Shown: piece after piece, positions 2,525 to 49,135 of the stretch | How positions within the stretch are numbered: the first letter of the stretch is position 1 | How the letters are laid out: each line of letters opens with the position of its first letter | Source of the DNA: Acidovorax sp. 210-6 | GTDB taxonomy: Bacteria > Pseudomonadota > Gammaproteobacteria > Burkholderiales > Burkholderiaceae_C | Reading direction: 5' to 3' | Length of the DNA stretch: 64,000 bases | Assembly (NCBI RefSeq): GCF_010020825.1 | Contig: NZ_JAACJE010000001.1 | Coordinates: 1-64,000 of the forward strand | The notes under the pieces: generated by a model | The model's input: only the letters and a program-made list of their open reading frames with translations | Databases searched by the model: none | What the model was told of the DNA's origin: nothing | Translations under genes and position numbers: made by a program

Positions 2525-2546
2525 ACATCATATTGCTATTAAAATA

Positions 2547-2589
2547 ATAGCTATCAGCGCTTAATTGGCGAGCGCTGGAGGCCAAAAAG
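2547..2589 (+). repeat. Family A dispersed repeat, copy 1
   Basis: Reads ATAGCT, AGCGCTT, GCGCTGGAGGCC and then an A-run, the shared signature of eight copies in this window. It lies between the convergent 3' ends of ssb and mnmA. Confidence 0.8.
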
Positions 2590-2591
2590 AC

Positions 2592-3707
2592 TCAAAGCGA
2601 CGTATCAACTGCTGCAATCACCCCGCCCCCCAGGCAGACCTCGCCGTCGTACAGCACCGCGCTCTGGCCCGGGGTCACGGCCCATTGGGCTTCGGGGAAT
2701 TGCAGGGCCACCCCGTCGGGGGAGGTCTCCAGCGTGCAGGCGGCGTCCTGCTGGCGGTAGCGCGTCTTGGCGGCGTAGGCGCCGGGCGCGGGGGCGTGGC
2801 CCGCGCACCAGCTCAGGTCCTGCGCCACCAGCCGGTGCGACAGCAGCCAGGGGTGGTCATGCCCCTGCACCACGCGCAGCGTGTTTTTCTCCAGGTCCTT
2901 GCGCGCCACGAACCAGGGCTCGTGTGAGCCGCCGCCGCGCTGGGCGCCCTTTTCCTTCACGCCGCCAATGCCCAGGCCCTGGCGCTGGCCCAGGGTGTAG
3001 AACGACAGGCCCACATGCTGGCCCAGCTTGCGCCCCCGGTCGTCCAGGATGGGGCCTGGCGCGTGGCTGATGTAGCGGTTGAGGAATTCGCGGAACGGCC
3101 GCTCGCCGATGAAGCAGATGCCGGTCGAATCCTTTTTCTTCGCGTTGGGCAGGCCAATTTCAGCGGCAATGCGACGCACCTCGGTCTTGTGCAGTTCGCC
3201 CACGGGGAACAGCGTTTTCGAAAGCTGGGCCTGGTTCAGGCGGTGCAGAAAGTAGCTTTGGTCCTTGGAGGGGTCCAGGCCCTTGAGCAGTTCGAACAAT
3301 CCGGTCGTGGCGTTCTGGCGCACGCGCGCGTAATGCCCGGTGGCAATCTTCTCGGCGCCCAGGCGCATGGCGTGGTCGAGGAAGGCCTTGAACTTGATTT
3401 CGGCGTTGCACAGCACGTCGGGGTTGGGCGTGCGCCCGGCCTGGTATTCGCGCAGGAACTCGGCGAACACGCGGTCCTTGTACTCGGCGGCGAAGTTGAC
3501 GTGCTCGATCTCGATGCCGATCACGTCGGCCACGGCGGCGGCGTCCACGAAATCGACGTTGGACGAGCAGTATTCGCTGTCGTCGTCATCTTCCCAGTTC
3601 TTCATGAAGATGCCGACCACCTCGTGGCCCTGTTGCTTGAGAAGGTGGGCGGTGACGGCGGAATCCACCCCGCCGGAGAGGCCCACCACGACGCGGTGCT
3701 TGTTCAT
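2592..3707 (-). CDS. mnmA: tRNA-specific 2-thiouridylase MnmA
   Basis: Cytoplasmic enzyme that thiolates U34 of tRNAs for Lys, Glu and Gln. It adenylates the base and transfers persulfide sulfur received from the IscS/Tus relay. The ATP-pyrophosphatase loop GLSGGVDS lies at residues 9-16. The two catalytic cysteines are Cys100 (PDVLCNAE) and the one in [12 protein letters not shown]. The start ATG at 3707 gives 371 aa, matching E. coli MnmA (about 368); a longer reading frame exists upstream but lacks family similarity. A GATAAT hexamer sits 7 bases before this ATG, suggesting a leaderless message. Confidence 0.97.
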
Positions 3708-23024: not shown

Positions 23025-24716
23025 TCAGCCCGCAGCCACCCCACCCGCCGCATGCCCGCGTGTGAAGGCTTCCTCGAACACCGAGTAGCCGGACCAGTCG
23101 CTGTGCGCAAACGCCAGCCGGTCTGTGGTGGGCGTGGGTAGCCAGGGCGTTTGCTCACCATTCGATAGCGCCTTGCGATGGGTGGATGGGCGCTGGAGGC
23201 CAATTTGGCTCATGAATTGCAGTGTTCCCGGCACCGGGATGGACATGGCGTGGCCATAGCGCGTGATCTCCACGCGCGTGGCGCGGCGTGCCAGGTCCGG
23301 GTGGGGCGCGCCCAGGGTGGCCAGTGCGGCGTCGGCCCAGTGCGTCCAGGGCTGGGTGGCCAGTTGTTCACGGGCCTGTGGCTGGTCGCCCAGCGCCTGG
23401 TAGTAGCTCAGCACGGTGGGTCCGGCCAGCAGGGCGCCGGTGTTCAGGCGTTGGTGGCCGGCATCCACATAGCCCAGGCCGCCGGGGTTGGCGTCCTGGT
23501 AGAGCACGTTGTCCCATGCGGGGGCGGCGCCGGGGCGGTCTTGCAGCGGCGCGTCGAGGTGTATGTTGGCCACCAGCCAGGGGGCCCATTGCAGGCGCTG
23601 GGCGGCGGCCTGCAGGAAGGCGGGTGCGGGCTGCACCACGCGTGCCGCCACGAACACGGGCAGCGCCACTACGCAGCGCGGCGCCTGCCAACGCTCGACC
23701 TGGCCGCTGGCGTGGTGCAGCGCGTCCACCTCCACACCGTGGCGTCCTTCGGCAATGCGCAGCACGCTGCAGCCGGTGCGCAACTGACCACCGGCGCGCA
23801 GCGGTGCGGCCAGGCGCTGGGTGAGCCAGCCGTTGCCCTCGGGCCAGGTGAGCACGGCTTCGCGCGCTTCGTCCACCGGCTCGCCAGGGGCATGGAACCC
23901 GTGGCGGCTGGCAAAGTAGTGGATGCCCGCCCAGGCCGACACGCGCGCCGTGCTGGCGCCGTAGTCGTCGCGGCAGCAGTAGTCCAGGTACCAGCGCAGG
24001 TGCGGGTCGTCGTAGCCGTGGGTGCCCAGCCAAGCTTCAAAAGTAATAGCATCCAGCGCTTGATGGATGGGCGCTAGAGGCCTTTTTTGCCCCAATGTCT
24101 TGAGCATGGGCATGGCAAAGCGGGCCGACTGCATGAGCGTCTGCACCTGCCGTGCAAAGCGCTGGTACTGCGCCAGCGTGCTGGGGGCCACGCCCTGTAC
24201 GGGCAGCAGGCCTTCGTGCCATTGGCCCTGGAAGTACAGCCGCTCCTGCGGGCTGTGGCACAGGTGGCGCTCGTCGTACTGCCAGCGCCCGGCCACGCGC
24301 TGGCGCAGGCCCAGTTCTTCCAGTAGGTCCTGCACCTCGCGGGCGTCGTCGCCCGGTACGGGCAGGTAGTGCGCGCCCATGGGGCAGGGCACGCCGTTCA
24401 CCGCACTGCCCCGGCTGTTGCCGCCGGCTTGGTCTTCCAGCTCCAGCAGCACAAAGTCGTTCACCCCTGCCAGGCGCAGCGCCCGCGCCGCGGCCAACCC
24501 TGCCACACCGCCCCCCGCAATCACCACCTGCGCACGCCGCACCAGCCCCGGCGCAGGCAGCGCGCCACGCGCCAGCAGGTCGCGCACCTGGTGCCCGCGC
24601 TCTAGGTCGATGCCCGCAAAGCCCCCTTGCAGCGCCCGCGGTGCCGGTTCACACCCCGCTGACAGCAGCGCGCCAGCGGCCGATGTGGCTGCGGTAAGGA
24701 ACTGGCGGCGCTGCAT
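23025..24716 (-). CDS. Tat-exported FAD-dependent amine oxidase-like lipoprotein
   Basis: 563 aa. The N-terminus RRQFLTAATSAAGALLSAGC combines a twin-arginine motif with a lipobox Cys, so the protein is probably exported folded and lipidated. The FAD-binding motif is VIAGGGVAGLAAARAL, followed by ELEDQAGGNSRG; GYSVFEEAFTRGHAAG near the end matches the C-terminal FAD contact of amine oxidases. Polyamine or amino acid oxidation is plausible beside an aminopropyltransferase but unproved. Two family A repeats lie in the coding sequence, at 23164-23208 and 24046-24089, giving insert peptides IGLQRPSTHRKALSN and QKRPLAPIHQALDAIT. The frame stays open through both. Confidence 0.85.
   Translation of the reverse strand: MQRRQFLTAATSAAGALLSAGCEPAPRALQGGFAGIDLERGHQVRDLLARGALPAPGLVRRAQVVIAGGGVAGLAAARALRLAGVNDFVLLELEDQAGGNSRGSAVNGVPCPMGAHYLPVPGDDAREVQDLLEELGLRQRVAGRWQYDERHLCHSPQERLYFQGQWHEGLLPVQGVAPSTLAQYQRFARQVQTLMQSARFAMPMLKTLGQKRPLAPIHQALDAITFEAWLGTHGYDDPHLRWYLDYCCRDDYGASTARVSAWAGIHYFASRHGFHAPGEPVDEAREAVLTWPEGNGWLTQRLAAPLRAGGQLRTGCSVLRIAEGRHGVEVDALHHASGQVERWQAPRCVVALPVFVAARVVQPAPAFLQAAAQRLQWAPWLVANIHLDAPLQDRPGAAPAWDNVLYQDANPGGLGYVDAGHQRLNTGALLAGPTVLSYYQALGDQPQAREQLATQPWTHWADAALATLGAPHPDLARRATRVEITRYGHAMSIPVPGTLQFMSQIGLQRPSTHRKALSNGEQTPWLPTPTTDRLAFAHSDWSGYSVFEEAFTRGHAAGGVAAG
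23164..23208 (+). repeat. Family A dispersed repeat, copy 2, inside the amine oxidase gene
   Basis: GATAGCG, TGGATGGGCGCTGGAGGCC and then AATTTGG, the family signature with a degenerate left half. Antisense to the gene and read there as part of QIGLQRPSTHRKALSNG. Confidence 0.65.
24046..24089 (+). repeat. Family A dispersed repeat, copy 3, inside the amine oxidase gene
   Basis: ATAGCATCCAGCGCTTGATG, then GGCGCTAGAGGCC and a T-run: a well-preserved copy. Read antisense as QKRPLAPIHQALDAIT, one base out of phase with the reading of copy 2. Confidence 0.75.
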
Positions 24717-24902: not shown

Positions 24903-26450
24903 CTAGTGCTTTCCCCACTCGCGCTCAAAGGTATGCACCAGCGCCTGGTTGGACAGGCGGTTGACCTCGGTGGGCACGCGCGCCATGTCCAGCGGGAAGT
25001 CCAGCAGCAGCGGCAGCGTGCCCAGGGTCAGGAACTTCAGGCCGTCCGGCAGCGCCTCGGGCAGACGCCAGGGCCTGCGGCTGGCGATGATGAAGCCCCA
25101 TTCGCCAAAGCTGGGCACATGCGCGTGGTAGGGCGTGGTGCGCAGCCCCACCGATTCGATGGTGTGCGCCACGGTCCAGAAGCTTGCGCGCGCCACCAGG
25201 GGCGAGGTGGTCTGCACCACGGCGTAGCCGCTGGCGGCCAGGCGCTGGTCCAACAGGGCGTAGAAGCTGTTGGTGTAGAGCTTGCCGATGGCAAAGTTGG
25301 TCGGGTCCGGAAAGTCCACCACGATCACATCGAACGTGTCCGTGCCCTGCTGCAGCCAGCCAAAGGCGTCGGCGTTGACGATGTGCACCCGCGCATCGCG
25401 CAGCGCATCGCCGTTGAGCCGGGCCAGCCGGGGGTTGTCGCGAAACTGTGCGGTCATGGCGGGGTCCAGCTCCACCAGCGTGACCGACTCGACCGTGGGG
25501 TACTTGAGCACTTCGCGCACCGCCATGCCGTCGCCGCCGCCCAGCACGGCCACCTTGCGCGGCCCGCCATGGGCGGCCATGGCGGGGTGCACCAGCGCCT
25601 CGTGGTAGCGGTACTCGTCGCGCTGGGCAAACTGCAGGTTGCCGTTGAGGTACAGCCGGTGCCCCGCCAGGCCCTGCGTCACCACAATGCGCTGGTAGGG
25701 CGAGGTGGTCGAGAACACGATGCGGTCCTGGTAGAACCGGTCCTCGGCCAGCGTGGTGATCTGGTCGGCGCCCACCATGCCTGCCGCGAGCAGCCCCACC
25801 ACCAAGGCGCAAGCGGCAATGTGCTCGCCCAGGCGGTGCAGCTCTTGGCGGAAGAGCCACAGCGCCCACACAGCCACGGCGGCATTCATCAACCCGAACA
25901 GCAGGCCGGTGCGGATCAGCCCCAGTTGCGGCACCAGCAGCAACGGGAAAGCCAGCGACACTGCGAGTGCGCCCAGGTAGTCGAAGGTGAGCACCTTGGA
26001 CACCAGGTCCTTGAGCACCACGTTGCGCTTGAGGATGCGCATGACCAGCGGGATCTCCAGCCCCACCAGCGTGCCCACCAGGAACACCATGCCGTACAGC
26101 AGCAGCCGGAACGACCCCGGCACATAAGCGTTGGCAAGAAACAGCGTGGCCGGCAGTGCACCGCCCACCAGCGCCACGAGCAGCTCGATGCGCAGGAAAT
26201 GGGCAGGCAACTGCCGCTCGAAATAGCGCGACAGCCACGAACCCACGCCCATGGCAAACAGGTAGGTGCCGATGATGGTGGAGAACTGCAGCACCGAGTC
26301 GCCCAGCACATAGGAGGCCAGGGCGCCCGCCGCCAGTTCGTAGATCAGCCCGCAGGCCGCCACCACGAAGACGCTGGCCAGCAGCGCGATTTCGATGGGG
26401 CGGGGGCCGGTGGCAGTCTGTGGTGTTGAGGAGGGTGCGGAAGCGTTCAA
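24903..26450 (-). CDS. Membrane-bound polyamine aminopropyltransferase (SpeE-like)
   Basis: 515 aa. The first 210 residues contain about seven membrane helices (LLASVFVVAACGLIYELAAG at the start). The C-terminal part is a spermidine-synthase domain: YQRIVVTQG, RLYLNGNLQFAQRDEYRYHE, GGGDGMAVREVLKYP, VELDPAM for decarboxylated SAM binding, and VVDFPDPT with the catalytic Asp and the amine-binding Asp-Pro. It should transfer aminopropyl groups to a diamine. No SAM decarboxylase gene is in this window. A family B repeat follows its stop. Context with DUF350, DUF4178 and SPFH suggests a membrane-associated polyamine role rather than bulk spermidine synthesis. Confidence 0.88.
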   Translation of the reverse strand: MNASAPSSTPQTATGPRPIEIALLASVFVVAACGLIYELAAGALASYVLGDSVLQFSTIIGTYLFAMGVGSWLSRYFERQLPAHFLRIELLVALVGGALPATLFLANAYVPGSFRLLLYGMVFLVGTLVGLEIPLVMRILKRNVVLKDLVSKVLTFDYLGALAVSLAFPLLLVPQLGLIRTGLLFGLMNAAVAVWALWLFRQELHRLGEHIAACALVVGLLAAGMVGADQITTLAEDRFYQDRIVFSTTSPYQRIVVTQGLAGHRLYLNGNLQFAQRDEYRYHEALVHPAMAAHGGPRKVAVLGGGDGMAVREVLKYPTVESVTLVELDPAMTAQFRDNPRLARLNGDALRDARVHIVNADAFGWLQQGTDTFDVIVVDFPDPTNFAIGKLYTNSFYALLDQRLAASGYAVVQTTSPLVARASFWTVAHTIESVGLRTTPYHAHVPSFGEWGFIIASRRPWRLPEALPDGLKFLTLGTLPLLLDFPLDMARVPTEVNRLSNQALVHTFEREWGKH

Positions 26451-26509: not shown

Positions 26510-26731
26510 TCAGTGGATCGCCGCCGCCACGATGATGCTGATCCCCAGGCACATGGCGGCGACCACCATGGCCAGGGCCTTGTTCTGGTTCTCCACGATC
26601 TCGCGCCACAGGTCGTAGGGCGTGATCTTGTCCACCAGGATGAAGCACAGCCAGAAGATGACGACGCCGATCAGCGCGTAGAGCATGGACCCGAGAAAGG
26701 CTGCGGGCCGGAGCCATTCGATTCCCATCAT
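26510..26731 (-). CDS. DUF350 small membrane protein (YjfL-like)
   Basis: 73 aa with two membrane helices (FLGSMLYALIGVVIFWLCFI and ALAMVVAAMCLGISIIVAAA) joined by a polar loop DKITPYDLWREIVENQNK that is typical of DUF350. Function unknown. It starts 21 bases after the DUF4178 stop, with a GAGGAGA site. In my recollection DUF350 proteins often accompany DUF4178, SPFH and aminopropyltransferase genes, as here. Confidence 0.85.
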   Translation of the reverse strand: MMGIEWLRPAAFLGSMLYALIGVVIFWLCFILVDKITPYDLWREIVENQNKALAMVVAAMCLGISIIVAAAIH

Positions 26732-26752: not shown

Positions 26753-28246
26753 TTACTTGTGGCTGCCGCCGCTGGAGTAGCCGCCCCACGAGCCGCCGGA
26801 GCTGCGCGAGTAGCTGCTGCCTGATGAACCCGAGCAGTCGCTCAGGATGATGAGCACGATGAGTAGGATGACCGCGATCAGGATCACCGTGCCGCAGCCC
26901 GCGCCCTTGGCCGCCACAAAGGGGCCCACGTCGTCGCGCTGGAGCAGGTCTTTCTTGTTCTCCAGCCCGAAGGCCTTGGCCACGGTGTCTGCCGAGAGCT
27001 TGTCGCCGCTGGACCAGGTGACCTCGTTGGCGCCTTGCTCCATGGACAGCAGGCCCTTGCTGCTGGCGAAGTCGCGGTTGCTGGTTTTCTGCCCGCGCGT
27101 GACCTGCCAGTAGAACTCGCCCAGCACGTAGGTGGTTTCGGCCTCGTAGTTGTACTTCAGGTCGTACTTGGTGCCCATGTAGGTGGCACTGCGCCCGTTG
27201 CCCGACAGTTGCGGTGCGCCGGTGGTGGGGCGTACAAAGCTCCAGCCGTCTTCGGCGTCCACCAGGAAGGCGAAGCCGCGCTTCTGGTTGTAGAGCAGGT
27301 ATTCGTTCCAGCCAAAGTGCTCGTCGTCGCCGGGCTCCACGCCCATGCGGTGCTGGAAACCCACCACCTGCCAGTGCACGCCCTTCAACTGGCCCTTGGT
27401 GCCCAGCGCGATGAGGGGCTGCACGGGCTCGTCCTGCTCGGCCGAGCGCAGTTCGCCGCCCACGCCGCTGTCCAGGCTGATGATGCTGGCGCAGGAGCCG
27501 CAGGTCAGGCTCTTGGTGCTGGCGAGCTGCACCTGCACGGGTGCGCCGCAGTGCGGGCAGTTGAACTGGCGGCCTTTTTCGTCCTTGGCCGATTCGTCCT
27601 TCAGGCCTTGCAGCTGGAGGTCTTCGAGCAGCACCGCGCGGCCGCGCTCCACCTGCGGCGGCTGGCGGCTGTAGTCGATGGAGAGCACCTCGCCGTCGCT
27701 GCTGCGCAGCTCGACCATGCCGAAGGGCTCGCCCAGCGGGGGCAGCTTGGGCAGTTCGCCCTGGGCCGAGATCAGGCTCGCCTGGCCGCTGAAGGCCACG
27801 CTGTAGGGCTTGCCGTTGATGGCGGTGGTGCTGCCCACGCGAAAGCGCGCGGCCTCGGGCAGCTCGCGTCCGGGATCGATGGGGCGGGTGAAGACATAGG
27901 CGCCGTTGTCCTCGCCCAGGCTGGCCATGGTGCCGTCTTCGAGGAAGGCGATCCATTCGGTCCAGGTACCCGCCTCGTTCTTGAACTGCAGGCGTCCGAT
28001 CAGTGTGAAGGGCTGTTCCTTGCCGTCCAGCTGGACGCGCCCGCTGGCCATGAGCTGCAGCGGGCTGTGGTCGTCGAACAGCTCGGCCATCTTGCCGATG
28101 CGCGAGAGCACCTCGCCCTGGCGCACCACGGTGCTCTGGCAGTAGCCGCAAACGGCGTGGGTGGACTGCGCGCTGCGGAATTCAACCGGCGCGCCGCAGC
28201 CTGGGCAGGGCGCCCGGTAGCTGCGTTGGGTGGGGCTGGTGGCCAT
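26753..28246 (-). CDS. DUF4178 protein with two zinc ribbons and a membrane tail
   Basis: 497 aa. Two treble-clef-like zinc ribbons are visible: CPGCGAPVEF with CGYC near the start and CPHCGAPVQV with CGSC near residue 215. Each is followed by a beta-rich DUF4178 domain (LIGRLQFKNEAGTWTEWIAF; WQVVGFQHRM and WNEYLLYN). A helix AGCGTVILIAVILLIVLIIL at about residue 450 anchors the protein, and the extreme C-terminus is Ser/Gly/Tyr-rich (SSYSRSSGGSWGGYSSGG). The biochemical role is unknown. It lies between the SPFH and DUF350 genes. Confidence 0.86.
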   Translation of the reverse strand: MATSPTQRSYRAPCPGCGAPVEFRSAQSTHAVCGYCQSTVVRQGEVLSRIGKMAELFDDHSPLQLMASGRVQLDGKEQPFTLIGRLQFKNEAGTWTEWIAFLEDGTMASLGEDNGAYVFTRPIDPGRELPEAARFRVGSTTAINGKPYSVAFSGQASLISAQGELPKLPPLGEPFGMVELRSSDGEVLSIDYSRQPPQVERGRAVLLEDLQLQGLKDESAKDEKGRQFNCPHCGAPVQVQLASTKSLTCGSCASIISLDSGVGGELRSAEQDEPVQPLIALGTKGQLKGVHWQVVGFQHRMGVEPGDDEHFGWNEYLLYNQKRGFAFLVDAEDGWSFVRPTTGAPQLSGNGRSATYMGTKYDLKYNYEAETTYVLGEFYWQVTRGQKTSNRDFASSKGLLSMEQGANEVTWSSGDKLSADTVAKAFGLENKKDLLQRDDVGPFVAAKGAGCGTVILIAVILLIVLIILSDCSGSSGSSYSRSSGGSWGGYSSGGSHK

Positions 28247-28289
28247 GCTGGGGGCTGCTGCTGGCGCCGCGCGCTGCGGTTTTATGAGG

Positions 28290-28338
28290 TTTTTGGCCTC
28301 TGGCGCTCATCCCTCCTGCGCCAACAGCTATTGTTTTT
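28290..28338 (-). repeat. Family A dispersed repeat, copy 4 (inverted)
   Basis: TTTTTGGCCTCTGGCGCTC, then TGCGCCAACAGCTATT: the reverse complement of the family signature. It fills the gap between the SPFH and DUF4178 genes. Confidence 0.75.
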
Positions 28339-28349
28339 ATAGCGTTTGC

Positions 28350-32553: not shown

Positions 32554-33914
32554 ATGAGCTTCGTCCACATCGAACAACCCGCCACCGACGCGCCGCGCCT
32601 CGATGCCGCCTGGCTCGACGCCCACTGGATGCCCTTCACCGGCAACCGCAATTTCAAGGCGAATCCGCGCATGGTGGTGGGCGCCAGCGGCGCCTACTAC
32701 ACCGACAGCGAAGGCCGCAAGATCTTCGACGGCCTTTCGGGCCTGTGGTGTTCGGGTCTGGGCCATGGCCGCCGCGAGATCGCCGAGGCCGTGGGCCAGG
32801 CCGCGGCGCGGCTGGACTACGCGCCGGCTTTCCAGTTCGGCCACCCGGCCTCGTTCGAGCTGGCCAACCGGATCAAGGACCTCACGCCCGCCGGGCTGGA
32901 CTACGTGTTCTTCACCGGTTCGGGTTCCGAGTCGGCCGACACCTCGCTCAAGATGGCCCGCGCCTACTGGCGCGCCAAGGGCCAGGGCACCAAGACGCGC
33001 CTGATCGGCCGCGAAAAGGGTTACCACGGCGTGAACTACGGCGGCATCTCGGTGGGTGGCATCGTGGGCAACCGCAAGCTGTTCGGCCAGGGCGTGGAGG
33101 CGGACCACATTCCCCACACCCAGCCGCCGGCAGGCACCTTCCAGAAGGGCATGGCCGAGGACGGCGGCCGCGCGCTGGCCGACAAACTGCTGGACGTGAT
33201 CGCGCTGCACGACGCGAGCAACATCGCTGCGGTGATCGTCGAGCCCTTCTCGGGCTCGGCCGGCGTGGTGATCCCGCCGGTCGGTTACCTTGCGCGCATC
33301 CGCGAGATCTGCACGCAGAACAACATCCTGCTGATTTTTGACGAGGTCATCACCGGCTTTGGCCGCTGCGGCACCTGGACCGGGGCCGAGGCCTTTGGCG
33401 TGACGCCCGACATCCTGAACTTCGCCAAGCAGGTCACCAATGGCGCCCAGCCGCTGGGCGGCGTGGTGGCCAGCAAGGAGATCTACGACACCTTCATGGC
33501 CGCAGGGGCGGCCCCGAGTACATGCTGGAGTTCCCGCACGGCTACACCTACTCGGCCCACCCCGTGGCCTGCGCGGCGGGCAACGCGGTGCTCGACATCC
33601 TGCAGAAGGAAGACATGCCGGGCCGCGTGAAGGCGCTGGCGCCCTATTTCGAGAATGCCGTGCACGGCCTGAAAGGGGCCAAGCATGTGGCCGACATCCG
33701 CAACTATGGCCTGGCCGCCGGCATCACCATCAGCGCCGTGCCCGGTGAGCCCGCCCGCCGGCCCTACGAGATCGCCATGAAGTGCTGGGACAAGGGCTTC
33801 TACGTGCGCTACGGTGGCGACACCATCCAGCTCGCGCCGCCCTTCATCAGCACCCAGGCCGAGATCGACCGCCTGGTCAGCGCGCTGGGCGATGCCCTGC
33901 ACGAAACCGCCTGA
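32554..33914 (+). pseudogene. Omega-amino acid (beta-alanine):pyruvate aminotransferase, frameshifted
   Basis: Class III PLP aminotransferase. The first part (from ATG 32554 with AGGAG upstream) is intact to about 33500: DGLSGLWCSGLGHGRREIAE in parts, FTGSGSESADTSLKM, LIFDEVITGFGRCG and the PLP lysine in FAKQVTNGAQPLGGV. The downstream part (PEYMLEFPHGYTYSAHPVAC to DALHETA at 33914) is in another frame. The shift lies at 33504-33511 in a G-rich run: one base missing or two extra. A full enzyme would have about 453 aa. This is either real inactivation or a read error; downstream mmsA is intact. Confidence 0.85.
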
Positions 33915-33926
33915 ACTCCTGTTTTG

Positions 33927-33970
33927 ATAGCTGCTGGCGCCTGATAAATAAGCGCTAGAGGCACTTTTTG
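33927..33970 (+). repeat. Family A dispersed repeat, copy 5
   Basis: ATAGCTGCTGGCGCCTGAT, then AAGCGCTAGAGGC and a T-run. It fills the gap between the aminotransferase and mmsA. Confidence 0.8.
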
Positions 33971-33983
33971 CTTGAAAATCATC

Positions 33984-46667: not shown

Positions 46668-46800
46668 GGCGTCAGCAAAGGGGGTGCTCAGAGTGGGAGG
46701 ATGGGGGCATCATGCCTGCTACCTGTCATGTCCCCTTGTCCTTGGCGTAAAGCACAGGTAAACGTGGCGCAGCTTCACGGTTACTTTTGCTATGTATTTT

Positions 46801-46844
46801 ATAGCTGCTTGTGCTTATGTATTAGGCGCTGGAGGCCGATTTGG
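46801..46844 (+). repeat. Family A dispersed repeat, copy 6, covering the ampG 3' end
   Basis: ATAGCTGCTTGTGCTTATG, then GGCGCTGGAGGCCGATTTGG. The ampG stop codon (46822-46824) and last codons are inside it. Apart from this copy, 46668-46800 shows no recognised feature. Confidence 0.75.
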
Positions 46845-48189
46845 CCTTGGATGCTATCCACACCAGTCCCAGCACCGGCAGGCCCAGCAATGCGGTGGAC
46901 GCAAAGAACTGTGCGTAGCCAAAGGCGTTGACGTAGTCGCCCGAAAAGCCCGCCACGAACTTGGGCAGCAGCAGCATCATCGAGCTGAACAGCGCGTATT
47001 GTGTGGCCGAATAGCTGACGTTGGTCAGGCTGGAGAGGTAGGCAATGAAGGCCGCCGACGCAATGCCGCTGGCCAGGTTGTCGGCAGAGACCACGGCGAT
47101 GAGCGCCGTTACATCGTGCCCATGGCCCGCCAGCCAGGCAAACAGCAGGTTGGTGCAGGCGCTCAGCAGGGCGCCCAGCATCAGGATGCGCATCACGCCA
47201 AAGCGCATGGCGAGCGAGCCGCCCACAAAGGCGCCGACCAGCGTCATCACCACGCCGTACACCTTGGTCACAGCGGCCACCTCGTCCTTGGTGTAGCCCA
47301 TGTCCACGTAGAAGGGGTTGGCCATGATGCCCATCACCACATCGCTGATGCGGTACACGGCGATCAACGCCAGGATCAGCGCCGCCTGCCAGCGGTAGCG
47401 GCGCACAAAGTCGGCAAACGGCTCCAGCAGGGCGCCGCGCAGCCATTCGGCCGCGTTGCGTGCCGGGGGCAGCTCCACAGGCCGGGGCTCGCGCGAGAAC
47501 AGCACCGTGACCATGCCCACAGCCATGGAGGCCGCCATCACCAGGTAGGCCGTCTGCCAGGCGCCGTTCTGGTAGGCCGCGGCGCCCGTTGCAGCGGCGG
47601 CCGCGCCTGCCAGTGCGGGGGCTTCGGCACGCGCGGCAATCCACAGCACCCCGGCACCGGCCCAGATCATCGCCAGCCGGTAGCCCGTTTGGTAGGCGGC
47701 AGCCAGGGCCGCCTGGTGGTTGGCGTCGGCCGATTCGATGCGGAAGGCGTCCAGCGCAATGTCCTGCGTGGCCGAGGCGAAGGCCACCATCAACGCACAG
47801 GCCACCACGGGGCCCAGCGCCTGGCGCGGGTCGGTCAGCGCCATGCCCACCAGCCCCACCACCACCAGGCACTGCGACAGCAGCAGCCAGCTGCGCCGCC
47901 GCCCCAGCGTGTGGGTGAGCAGTGGCAGCGGCAGCCGGTCCACCAGCGGCGCCCAGGCCCACTTGAAGCCATAGGCCAGGCCCACCCAGCTCAGGTGCCC
48001 GATGGTGCTGCGGTCGATGCCTGCCTCGCGCAGGCGAAAGCTCAGCGTGCCCAGCACCAGCAGCAACGGCAGGCCAGCCGAAAAGCCGAGCGTCAGCATG
48101 CGCAGGCTGGCGGGTTCGAGGTACACGCGCAGCGTCTGGAGCCAGGACATGCGCGGTGCGGTGGGAGAAGGCGTGGTGGTGGGCGGCAT
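46822..48189 (-). CDS. ampG: AmpG-type muropeptide permease (MFS)
   Basis: 455 aa MFS permease that imports anhydro-muropeptides in cell wall recycling. About 12 helices; family patches are LGFSAGLPLLLVLGTLSFRL, WVGLAYGFKWAWAPLVDRLP and ATQDIALDAFRIE. The first 13 residues (MPPTTTPSPTAPR) are probably disordered. The last residues (KAKSASSA) are coded by a family A repeat, so the normal C-terminus has been replaced or extended. It is divergent from the M48 protease gene (30 bases). AmpG identity is good; the substrate is by family. Confidence 0.88.
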   Translation of the reverse strand: MPPTTTPSPTAPRMSWLQTLRVYLEPASLRMLTLGFSAGLPLLLVLGTLSFRLREAGIDRSTIGHLSWVGLAYGFKWAWAPLVDRLPLPLLTHTLGRRRSWLLLSQCLVVVGLVGMALTDPRQALGPVVACALMVAFASATQDIALDAFRIESADANHQAALAAAYQTGYRLAMIWAGAGVLWIAARAEAPALAGAAAAATGAAAYQNGAWQTAYLVMAASMAVGMVTVLFSREPRPVELPPARNAAEWLRGALLEPFADFVRRYRWQAALILALIAVYRISDVVMGIMANPFYVDMGYTKDEVAAVTKVYGVVMTLVGAFVGGSLAMRFGVMRILMLGALLSACTNLLFAWLAGHGHDVTALIAVVSADNLASGIASAAFIAYLSSLTNVSYSATQYALFSSMMLLLPKFVAGFSGDYVNAFGYAQFFASTALLGLPVLGLVWIASKAKSASSA

Positions 48190-49068: not shown

Positions 49069-49082
49069 ATGCTATTGAATTG

Positions 49083-49126
49083 ATAGCTGTCAGCGCTTTA
49101 TCCACGGGCGCTAGAGGCCAAAAACC
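49083..49126 (+). repeat. Family A dispersed repeat, copy 7
   Basis: ATAGCTGTCAGCGCTTTAT, then GGGCGCTAGAGGCC and an A-run. Between the convergent 3' ends of the M48 and metallo-beta-lactamase-fold genes. Confidence 0.8.
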
Positions 49127-49135
49127 ATTGAAGTT

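Follow-up and report, generated by a model that had tools for sequence, protein, structure and literature searches.

A dispersed palindromic repeat of Comamonadaceae occurs twice, in different frames, in an amine-oxidase-like gene and tends to keep its DNA spelling there in genomes that carry the repeat family

The Rickettsia palindromic elements (RPE) are short palindromic repeats that lie in frame within unrelated protein genes and are also present outside genes. To our knowledge, in-frame insertions of repeats are known mainly from Rickettsia and its relatives. Other short repeats have been described in various bacteria. The REP elements of the GTAG and CGTC superfamilies are abundant short palindromes that are mostly dispersed, and the main text of a survey on these elements makes no mention of Acidovorax, Delftia, Rhodoferax, Polaromonas, or Comamonas (PMC3733652). 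The betaproteobacterial repeat elements (BRE) are approximately 90 bp long, have an average GC content of 69% in Bordetella, and are often arranged in tandem; they also occur in Comamonadaceae, with some copies lying wholly inside coding sequences, and the genomes listed for them include R. ferrireducens T118 with four copies and none with more than 29 (PMC3110155). The RU sequences of enterobacteria and the QMITEs of Coxiella, as described in the abstracts, are small mobile repeats of 103-400 bp, copies of which lie inside or overlap annotated genes (PMC2759123, PMC5896051). Among titles and the opening parts of abstracts, no published description of the repeat of Comamonadaceae considered herein was found, the nearest betaproteobacterial topic being the BRE.

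The window analyzed in the present study is a 64-kb stretch (64,000 nucleotides) of the genome of Acidovorax sp. 210-6. Repeat copies were scored with a covariance model, R1, which was built from 12 copies of the same genome with both copies in the gene of interest (the genic copies) excluded. The features are as follows.

23028..24716 (stop codon 23025-23027), minus strand: FAD-dependent amine-oxidase-like gene, from the translation, Pfam, and a structure model
24032..24094, minus strand: site 1 repeat copy, read as LGQKRPLAPIHQALDAITFEA; whole repeat (R1 66.5 bits, E 1.6e-14)
23151..23213, minus strand: site 2 repeat copy, read as SQIGLQRPSTHRKALSNGEQ; true insertion, judging from the orthologue alignment (R1 43.2 bits, E 1.7e-8)
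2533..2595, minus strand: further repeat copy (R1 72.1 bits, training set)
28283..28345, plus strand: further repeat copy (R1 65.2 bits, training set)
33913..33975, minus strand: further repeat copy (R1 56.5 bits, training set)
46787..46849, minus strand: further repeat copy (R1 59.8 bits, training set)
49069..49131, minus strand: further repeat copy (R1 70.7 bits, training set)

The gene at 23028-24716 is translated on the minus strand without an inner stop into a protein of 563 amino acids, which matched the Pfam families Amino_oxidase (3.9e-19) and NAD_binding_8 (1.5e-11). The predicted structure of this protein had a mean pLDDT of 84.2 and was nearest to putrescine/monoamine oxidases, and its N-terminus, judged by eye, looks like a signal sequence. 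The closest named relatives among the orthologue loci were from Giesbergeria and Acidovorax, both of Comamonadaceae. The neighbors on the same strand, at 24906-26450, 26513-26731, and 26756-28246 (minus), encode a spermine/spermidine synthase domain protein, a DUF350 protein, and a DUF4178 protein, respectively, which suggests a polyamine-related gene cluster. The GC content at the third codon position was 0.35 at site 1 and 0.61 at site 2, with 0.85 in the remaining gene, and the codon make-up at both sites is foreign to the gene.

In the orientation of the gene, the sequence of site 1 is CAA AAA AGG CCT CTA GCG CCC ATC CAT CAA GCG CTG GAT GCT ATT ACT, and site 2 reads CAA ATT GGC CTC CAG CGC CCA TCC ACC CAT CGC AAG GCG CTA TCG AAT. 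The GGCCT core is split as A/GG CCT at site 1 and as GGC/CT at site 2, and the frames are one base apart. The initial annotation of this stretch had described two copies of one repeat that lie inside a single gene and are read in different frames, and this description stands (AGG CCT versus GGC CTC), with both peptides being present in the translation. A duplicated protein motif, which the annotation had dismissed because the core is divided into codons differently at the two sites, was also ruled out here by the use of different frames. The dispersed palindromic repeat that it had placed behind both sites was confirmed, since R1, which contains neither genic copy, detected both, and at least 150 copies are present in the own genome. 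Judged from the R1 scores of these sequences, a chance resemblance of the two genic copies to the repeat is excluded.

The repeat is approximately 55 bp long, forms two hairpins, and is dispersed through the genomes of Comamonadaceae, which are soil and water bacteria. Its consensus in the 12 other copies of the own genome was about CAAATTGGCCTCCAGCGCCCGTCCATCAAGCGCNAGCAGCTATTAATTTNATAGCA, which in a short form may be written as about TTRAGTCAAATTGGCCTCYAGCGC-N11-GCGCNAGCAGCTATYAAWTTNATAGC. Seven copies were found by R1 in the window, namely, the two genic copies and five others, all from the training set, with scores of 56-72 bits; by extrapolation, seven copies per 64 kb would correspond to some 450 in a genome of 4.2 Mb. 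The own genome holds at least 150 copies, all 150 candidates scored (of 3863 obtained at a first look) having matched with E values not larger than 3.6e-6, and a genome titled Rhodoferax ferrireducens also had at least 150 matches. The GC content of the repeat in the own genome was 0.29-0.57, and the consensus of 96 own-genome copies showed conserved motif positions and a variable remainder. The hairpins, AGCGC..GCGC and GCTAT..ATAGC, were paired in 85.2% of cells across the 96 copies (12.9-44.2% when slid). The repeat is a highly abundant, REP/MITE-like repeat of Comamonadaceae; regarding MITE features, it has two internal hairpins rather than terminal repeats. Hairpin covariation over the 96 copies was not above that of shuffles, and, thus, a role as a structured RNA is not supported. 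A scan of positions 20000-50000 against Rfam with E values up to 1 gave no match overlapping any repeat copy, which rules out a curated RNA family within this segment. A GC-rich version of the repeat (GC 0.52-0.63) was observed in genomes G338 and G339 (L348-L367), where the stem of several copies is lengthened to GCGCCC..GGGCGC; this longer stem was also noted in genic site 2 of L098 and L090.

Regarding site 2, all of the 24 orthologues from other families of Burkholderiales (L154-L177) were empty. The number of residues between the anchors was 19-21 in these families, 33 or 37 in six loci of the Rhodoferax/Curvibacter type (L097 is not among the six, here and below), and 40 in the window, and site 2 is, in this alignment, a clear insertion. 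Repeat-like inserts were present in most of the loci of Acidovorax, Giesbergeria, Simplicispira, Diaphorobacter, Comamonas, Rhodoferax, and the Curvibacter type, and were not recognizable in the orthologues of Variovorax, Polaromonas, and Xenophilus. In the frame used at site 2, the terminal ATAGC of the repeat would introduce a stop codon, TAG; among the 82 loci with a residue at this position, a count that includes duplicate genomes, the codon was GAG in 69, GAA in five, CAT in three, GAT in two, and GCG, CAC, and TAC in one each. In genomes of the L090/L098 type, a third repeat-like copy (20-28 bits) follows site 2 on its downstream side by approximately 180 bases and is located where the gene ends (3') or slightly beyond, as in L090 (4656-4718), L098 (4639-4701), and L115 (4656-4717).

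Site 1 carries the repeat without an insertion of full length. The residues between the anchors numbered 38 in the window, 31-33 in the 24 orthologues from other families, 33 in the six Rhodoferax/Curvibacter-type loci, and 33-34 in fifteen Variovorax-type loci. The other families are only 5-7 residues shorter than the window and share ALD..F..WL, which, as read from this alignment, is ancestral, and the five extra residues in the clade of the window correspond to the 5' end of the repeat. In the Rhodoferax/Curvibacter-type loci, the DNA of site 1 matched the repeat model with 27.6-42.9 bits (E not larger than 0.002) in five of six and with 19.6 bits (E 0.23) in the sixth, and this match came without added length. 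The repeat match, the nearly unchanged length, and the ancestral ALD..F..WL together indicate that the repeat replaced, or was formed from, an ancestral stretch, and was not added to it. In the ProA-like gene of L139 (1960-2021), a repeat match of 37.2 bits was observed even though the residues look natural, and this is possibly another ancestral coding stretch with repeat spelling, similar to site 1.

The initial annotation had expected insert-free orthologues to have gaps at both sites and both inserts to be loops. The former expectation agreed with the alignment at site 2, which is missing from 24/24 orthologues, and failed at site 1, at which they are 5-7 residues shorter. The latter agreed with the predicted structure at site 2, which is loop-like and of low confidence (mean pLDDT 72 for residues 501-510 and 67 for 511-520), but not at site 1, which is predicted to be ordered (pLDDT 82, 89, and 98 across residues 201-230) with helices at 216-222 and 226-232. 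Shared residues in repeat-less orthologues at both places, which the annotation had named as evidence against its view, were found in part at site 1 (ALD..F..WL), because this motif is ancestral and the Rhodoferax/Curvibacter-type DNA matches the repeat without added length, and were not found at site 2.

In-frame copies were also detected in other genes. Thirteen of the 96 own-genome copies examined lie in coding-like open frames, two of the 13 being those in the amine oxidase gene; one of the 13 (L237) may precede the true start, and another (L139, ProA-like) may be natural sequence. Eight of the 11 coding-like copies outside the amine oxidase gene are read in the opposite orientation, several yielding a peptide similar to IKTIAxSAxxTGAxGQ. 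From the look of their sequences, we tentatively take other repeat-bearing genes to encode a carboxylase, an RdoA-like kinase, a patatin-like protein, GspD, RlmI, ProA, and RecQ. The copy in L265 (1028-1090) apparently codes for an N-terminus resembling a signal peptide in a GspD-like secretin. In-frame copies were seen in aconitase, UvrA, PurL, and PepN, in which the repeat piece adds 15 residues relative to 3sn2 (aconitase), seven relative to 6jta (PurL), and a net seven relative to 4qme (PepN), while that of UvrA lies in a region unaligned to the solved homologue. Among the 23 UvrA loci of the genus, 17 had a repeat match at the insert, three (L399, L400, and L405) had a longer segment without a match, and three (L409, L411, and L412) were empty; two of the empty loci are from repeat-poor genomes (G001 with no copies and G022 with four) and one is from a rich genome (G004, 147 copies). 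Many of these 23 loci also had a second and weaker repeat match (20-33 bits), which was located approximately 1.6 kb away from the insert, for example, in L392 (130-192), L396 (106-167), L395 (3484-3546), and L406 (3538-3600). Regarding aconitase, the longer segment was present in all of 21 full loci, with a repeat match of at least 19 bits in only 13 of the 21, and the aconitase insert of G009 (143 copies) has GC-rich codons.

The spelling of the DNA at the two sites was compared between genomes that are rich and poor in the repeat family. Where the amino acid was the same, the A/T-ending codon of the window was kept in 122/215 cases at site 1, 81/123 at site 2, and 379/1428 in the rest of the gene among 29 family-rich genomes, versus 26/119, 8/41, and 250/988, respectively, among 22 family-poor genomes. 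The repeat spelling is kept beyond the level of the rest of the gene only in genomes still carrying the family. The best stretches of 20 codons on the sites kept 102/184 and 82/114, and the best stretch away from the sites kept 43/93, in a count that took the genomes of L012, L014, and L015 as rich without a measured copy number and excluded L085. A genic repeat match of at least 19 bits, a threshold of our own choice, was present in 27 of 30 rich genomes and in one of 22 poor genomes (Fisher p 2e-10, uncorrected for kinship), these genomes being hand-picked rather than random and the genic match of L149 having been scored via the identical sites of L061. These values and the codon counts of rich and poor genomes are based on measured genomes only, with L085 included, and one of each set of duplicate genomes among the orthologue loci (e.g., L010 = L039) was used in the pair and codon tests. 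On a gene tree constructed without the two sites, the supported branches gave eight independent pairs; on average, 6.2 of these pairs agreed in direction and none was reversed (median p by sign test 0.031, with a range of 0.016-0.22; similar results for the 41-genome set); the independent contrasts are few, about eight. The codon spelling, the co-occurrence, and the clade versions described below together suggest that the genic copies are still live parts of the family and not fossils. Among the rich genomes, L085 (115 copies) had no genic match, and L021 and L024 reached 17.8 and 15.0 bits, respectively. Several rich genomes (L045, L046, L052, and L064 among others) lost the spelling at site 1 but kept it at site 2, and L097, from a repeat-poor genome (four copies) on the Rhodoferax branch, had no genic match.

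The genic copies also resemble the version of the repeat in their own clade. The repeat profile of the own clade scored best for 12 of 14 genic copies, a result equaled in one of 560 label permutations and ranging from 10 to 13 of 14 over 30 subsamples; the exceptions were site 2 of the window itself and site 2 of L086, which scored best with another clade. The base before GCGC was A in 90/102 copies of Acidovorax-type genomes and in 6/6 of their genic copies, T in 61/77 copies of the Rhodoferax type and in 6/6 genic copies, and T or G in 19/20 copies of the G338/G339 type with G in 2/2 genic copies. At site 2, this base leads to KRK in the Acidovorax type versus MRK in the Rhodoferax type. 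Seventeen columns differ between the clades; only the base before GCGC separates them cleanly, and several others are mixed. The change of G to C in AGCGC was present in all six Rhodoferax-type genic copies and formed the majority in one of three profiled families (20/28, 4/25, and 8/24). Since the profiles were drawn from matches to the model of the own clade, the samples of other clades are biased toward its version, which works against finding differences. The profiles exclude L204 in A4, which is the genic site 2 copy of L086, both L135 copies, which are from the amine oxidase gene, and three stray secondary matches, one each in L343, L269, and L203. Rows that did not have 63 letters were dropped, which reduced G000 from 94 to 82, G326 from 28 to 25, and G328 from 26 to 24, and G327, with four usable rows, was not profiled.

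A match to Y1_Tnp was present in 35 of 38 Comamonadaceae genomes, rich and poor alike, and the three genomes without a match (G347, G352, and G356) are repeat-rich. In most cases, the match was a single frame of 230-330 residues with a low score of 32-53 bits. A RAYT-linked REP was ruled out by co-occurrence, the Y1 transposase domain being independent of repeat richness, and a RAYT transposase is an unlikely agent because this domain occurs in rich and poor genomes alike.

Considering these results, we regard it as fairly probable that, after an early insertion or conversion, the in-frame genic copies have been kept near the spelling of the family by a sequence-specific process that acts on all copies of the genome. 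The genic copies are common to several genera and, thus, are old. At site 2, an insertion would have occurred early in the family, while site 1 may have arisen, also early in the family, by an insertion accompanied by the loss of a similar ancestral stretch or by the conversion of that stretch. A later sequence-specific process on all copies, most likely a putative trans-acting factor that recognizes the repeat, would then hold the coded copies near the family spelling, with the protein presumably tolerating the residues that result. When a lineage loses this process, its dispersed copies would vanish and its coded copies would be rewritten to ordinary GC-rich codons or lost. Only as a tentative extension do we propose that a dispersed non-coding family dictates part of the protein sequence of enzymes across a bacterial family, with the residues following the repeat version of each lineage as long as the family and the putative trans factor persist.

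A plain history similar to that of RPE, in which selfish repeats underwent a single in-frame insertion and persist as protein segments with the DNA resemblance as a remnant, appears doubtful to us. The insertions are in frame and shared by descent, some have decayed, and the likeness of the genic copies to their own clade is incomplete, all of which agree with such a history; however, the excess retention of codons is limited to rich genomes even though the rest of the gene diverged about equally (379/1428 versus 250/988), and, at site 1 as well as at site 2, the base preceding GCGC in the genic copies is that of the clade. The initial annotation had favored this history, and its notion of an in-frame insertion held for site 2, but not for site 1, to which nearly no length was added; the repeat also lies in frame in other proteins, with three of 23 UvrA loci being empty. 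Gene conversion, through which dispersed copies would repeatedly overwrite the genic copies in concerted evolution, is likewise doubtful as the explanation. It would account for the clade resemblance, for the loss of the spelling once donors are gone, and for the Rhodoferax/Curvibacter-type site 1, which has the repeat at an unchanged length, as expected if a similar ancestral stretch had been converted. Nevertheless, the copies of the own genome vary outside the motif positions, and the highest-scoring matches of the genic copies within this genome reached 81% across 54 bp and 86% across 43 bp, whereas homogenization would leave longer identity, which speaks against recent conversion. This diversity and the lack of a close donor make recognition by a trans factor, or a drive similar to that of uptake sequences, fit slightly better than gene conversion.

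It is more improbable that each clade's own repeat was inserted independently into the same two sites. Variovorax and Xenophilus, which are repeat-poor and have no recognizable insert at site 2, are grouped with support with L098/L090, the site 2 of which fits its own clade, and the repeat-rich Polaromonas L101 is without a site 2 insert, as independent insertions would allow; on the other hand, both sites would need to have been hit again, and the position, frame, and mostly GAG end at site 2 are common to the clades, although GAG is also one way around the TAG stop. A signal of the DNA uptake type, with a receptor or recombination bias driving all copies, including coding copies, to the dialect of the lineage, is very unlikely in our estimation. 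The conserved motif with a variable rest, the copies both in and between genes, the lineage versions, and the disappearance of the family as a whole from single lineages are in line with such a signal; however, known uptake sequences are about 10-12 bases long, which counts against this reading for a repeat of approximately 55 bases, and two hairpins over this length are unusual for one. We attach the least credence, amounting to a slight one, to site 1 being an ancestral coding stretch that resembles the repeat by chance and was neither inserted nor converted. The ancestral state of ALD..F..WL and the unchanged length in the Rhodoferax/Curvibacter type would agree with chance, but not the 66.5 bits (E 1.6e-14) and third-position GC of 0.35 in the window, the scores of the six Rhodoferax/Curvibacter-type loci (27.6-42.9 bits in five and 19.6 bits in the other), or the five extra residues in the clade of the window, which are the 5' end of the repeat.

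The phenomenon is of a known kind, namely, palindromes that code in frame, found herein in the housekeeping enzymes of free-living Comamonadaceae, for which many sequenced genomes may be compared. Sister lineages that are rich and poor in the repeat make it testable whether the inserts are fossils or are held in trans, and the latter, if true, would represent protein evolution driven by a DNA element. The residues and AT-rich codons at repeat sites need to be viewed with caution and not be taken as protein adaptation.

In comparisons with the systems described above, the repeat differs from the REP elements in that the 96-copy consensus, inspected by eye, has neither a GTAG nor a CGTC tag where the palindrome ends. 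It is set apart from the BRE, as these have been described, by its length of approximately 55 bp, its GC content of 0.29-0.57, and at least 150 matches in the genome titled Rhodoferax ferrireducens, a distinction of description and not of letters (PMC3110155). Unlike the RU sequences and QMITEs, it is shorter and belongs to another lineage, and the abstracts on these elements do not mention an upkeep of the DNA spelling of coding copies (PMC2759123, PMC5896051). Similar to RPE, the repeat of Comamonadaceae lies in frame in unrelated proteins (the amine oxidase, aconitase, UvrA, PurL, and PepN) and also outside genes. The element-sized gap in insert-free orthologues, which is a trait of RPE, is present at site 2 and in UvrA, but not at site 1 (5-7 residues) or in PurL and PepN (only seven additional residues each). 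In contrast to RPE, the repeat occurs in free-living Betaproteobacteria, has at least 150 copies of approximately 55 bp, and shows a spelling tied to the presence of the dispersed family. By analogy, and likened by description rather than by sequence, it is the phenomenon of RPE in a free-living family.
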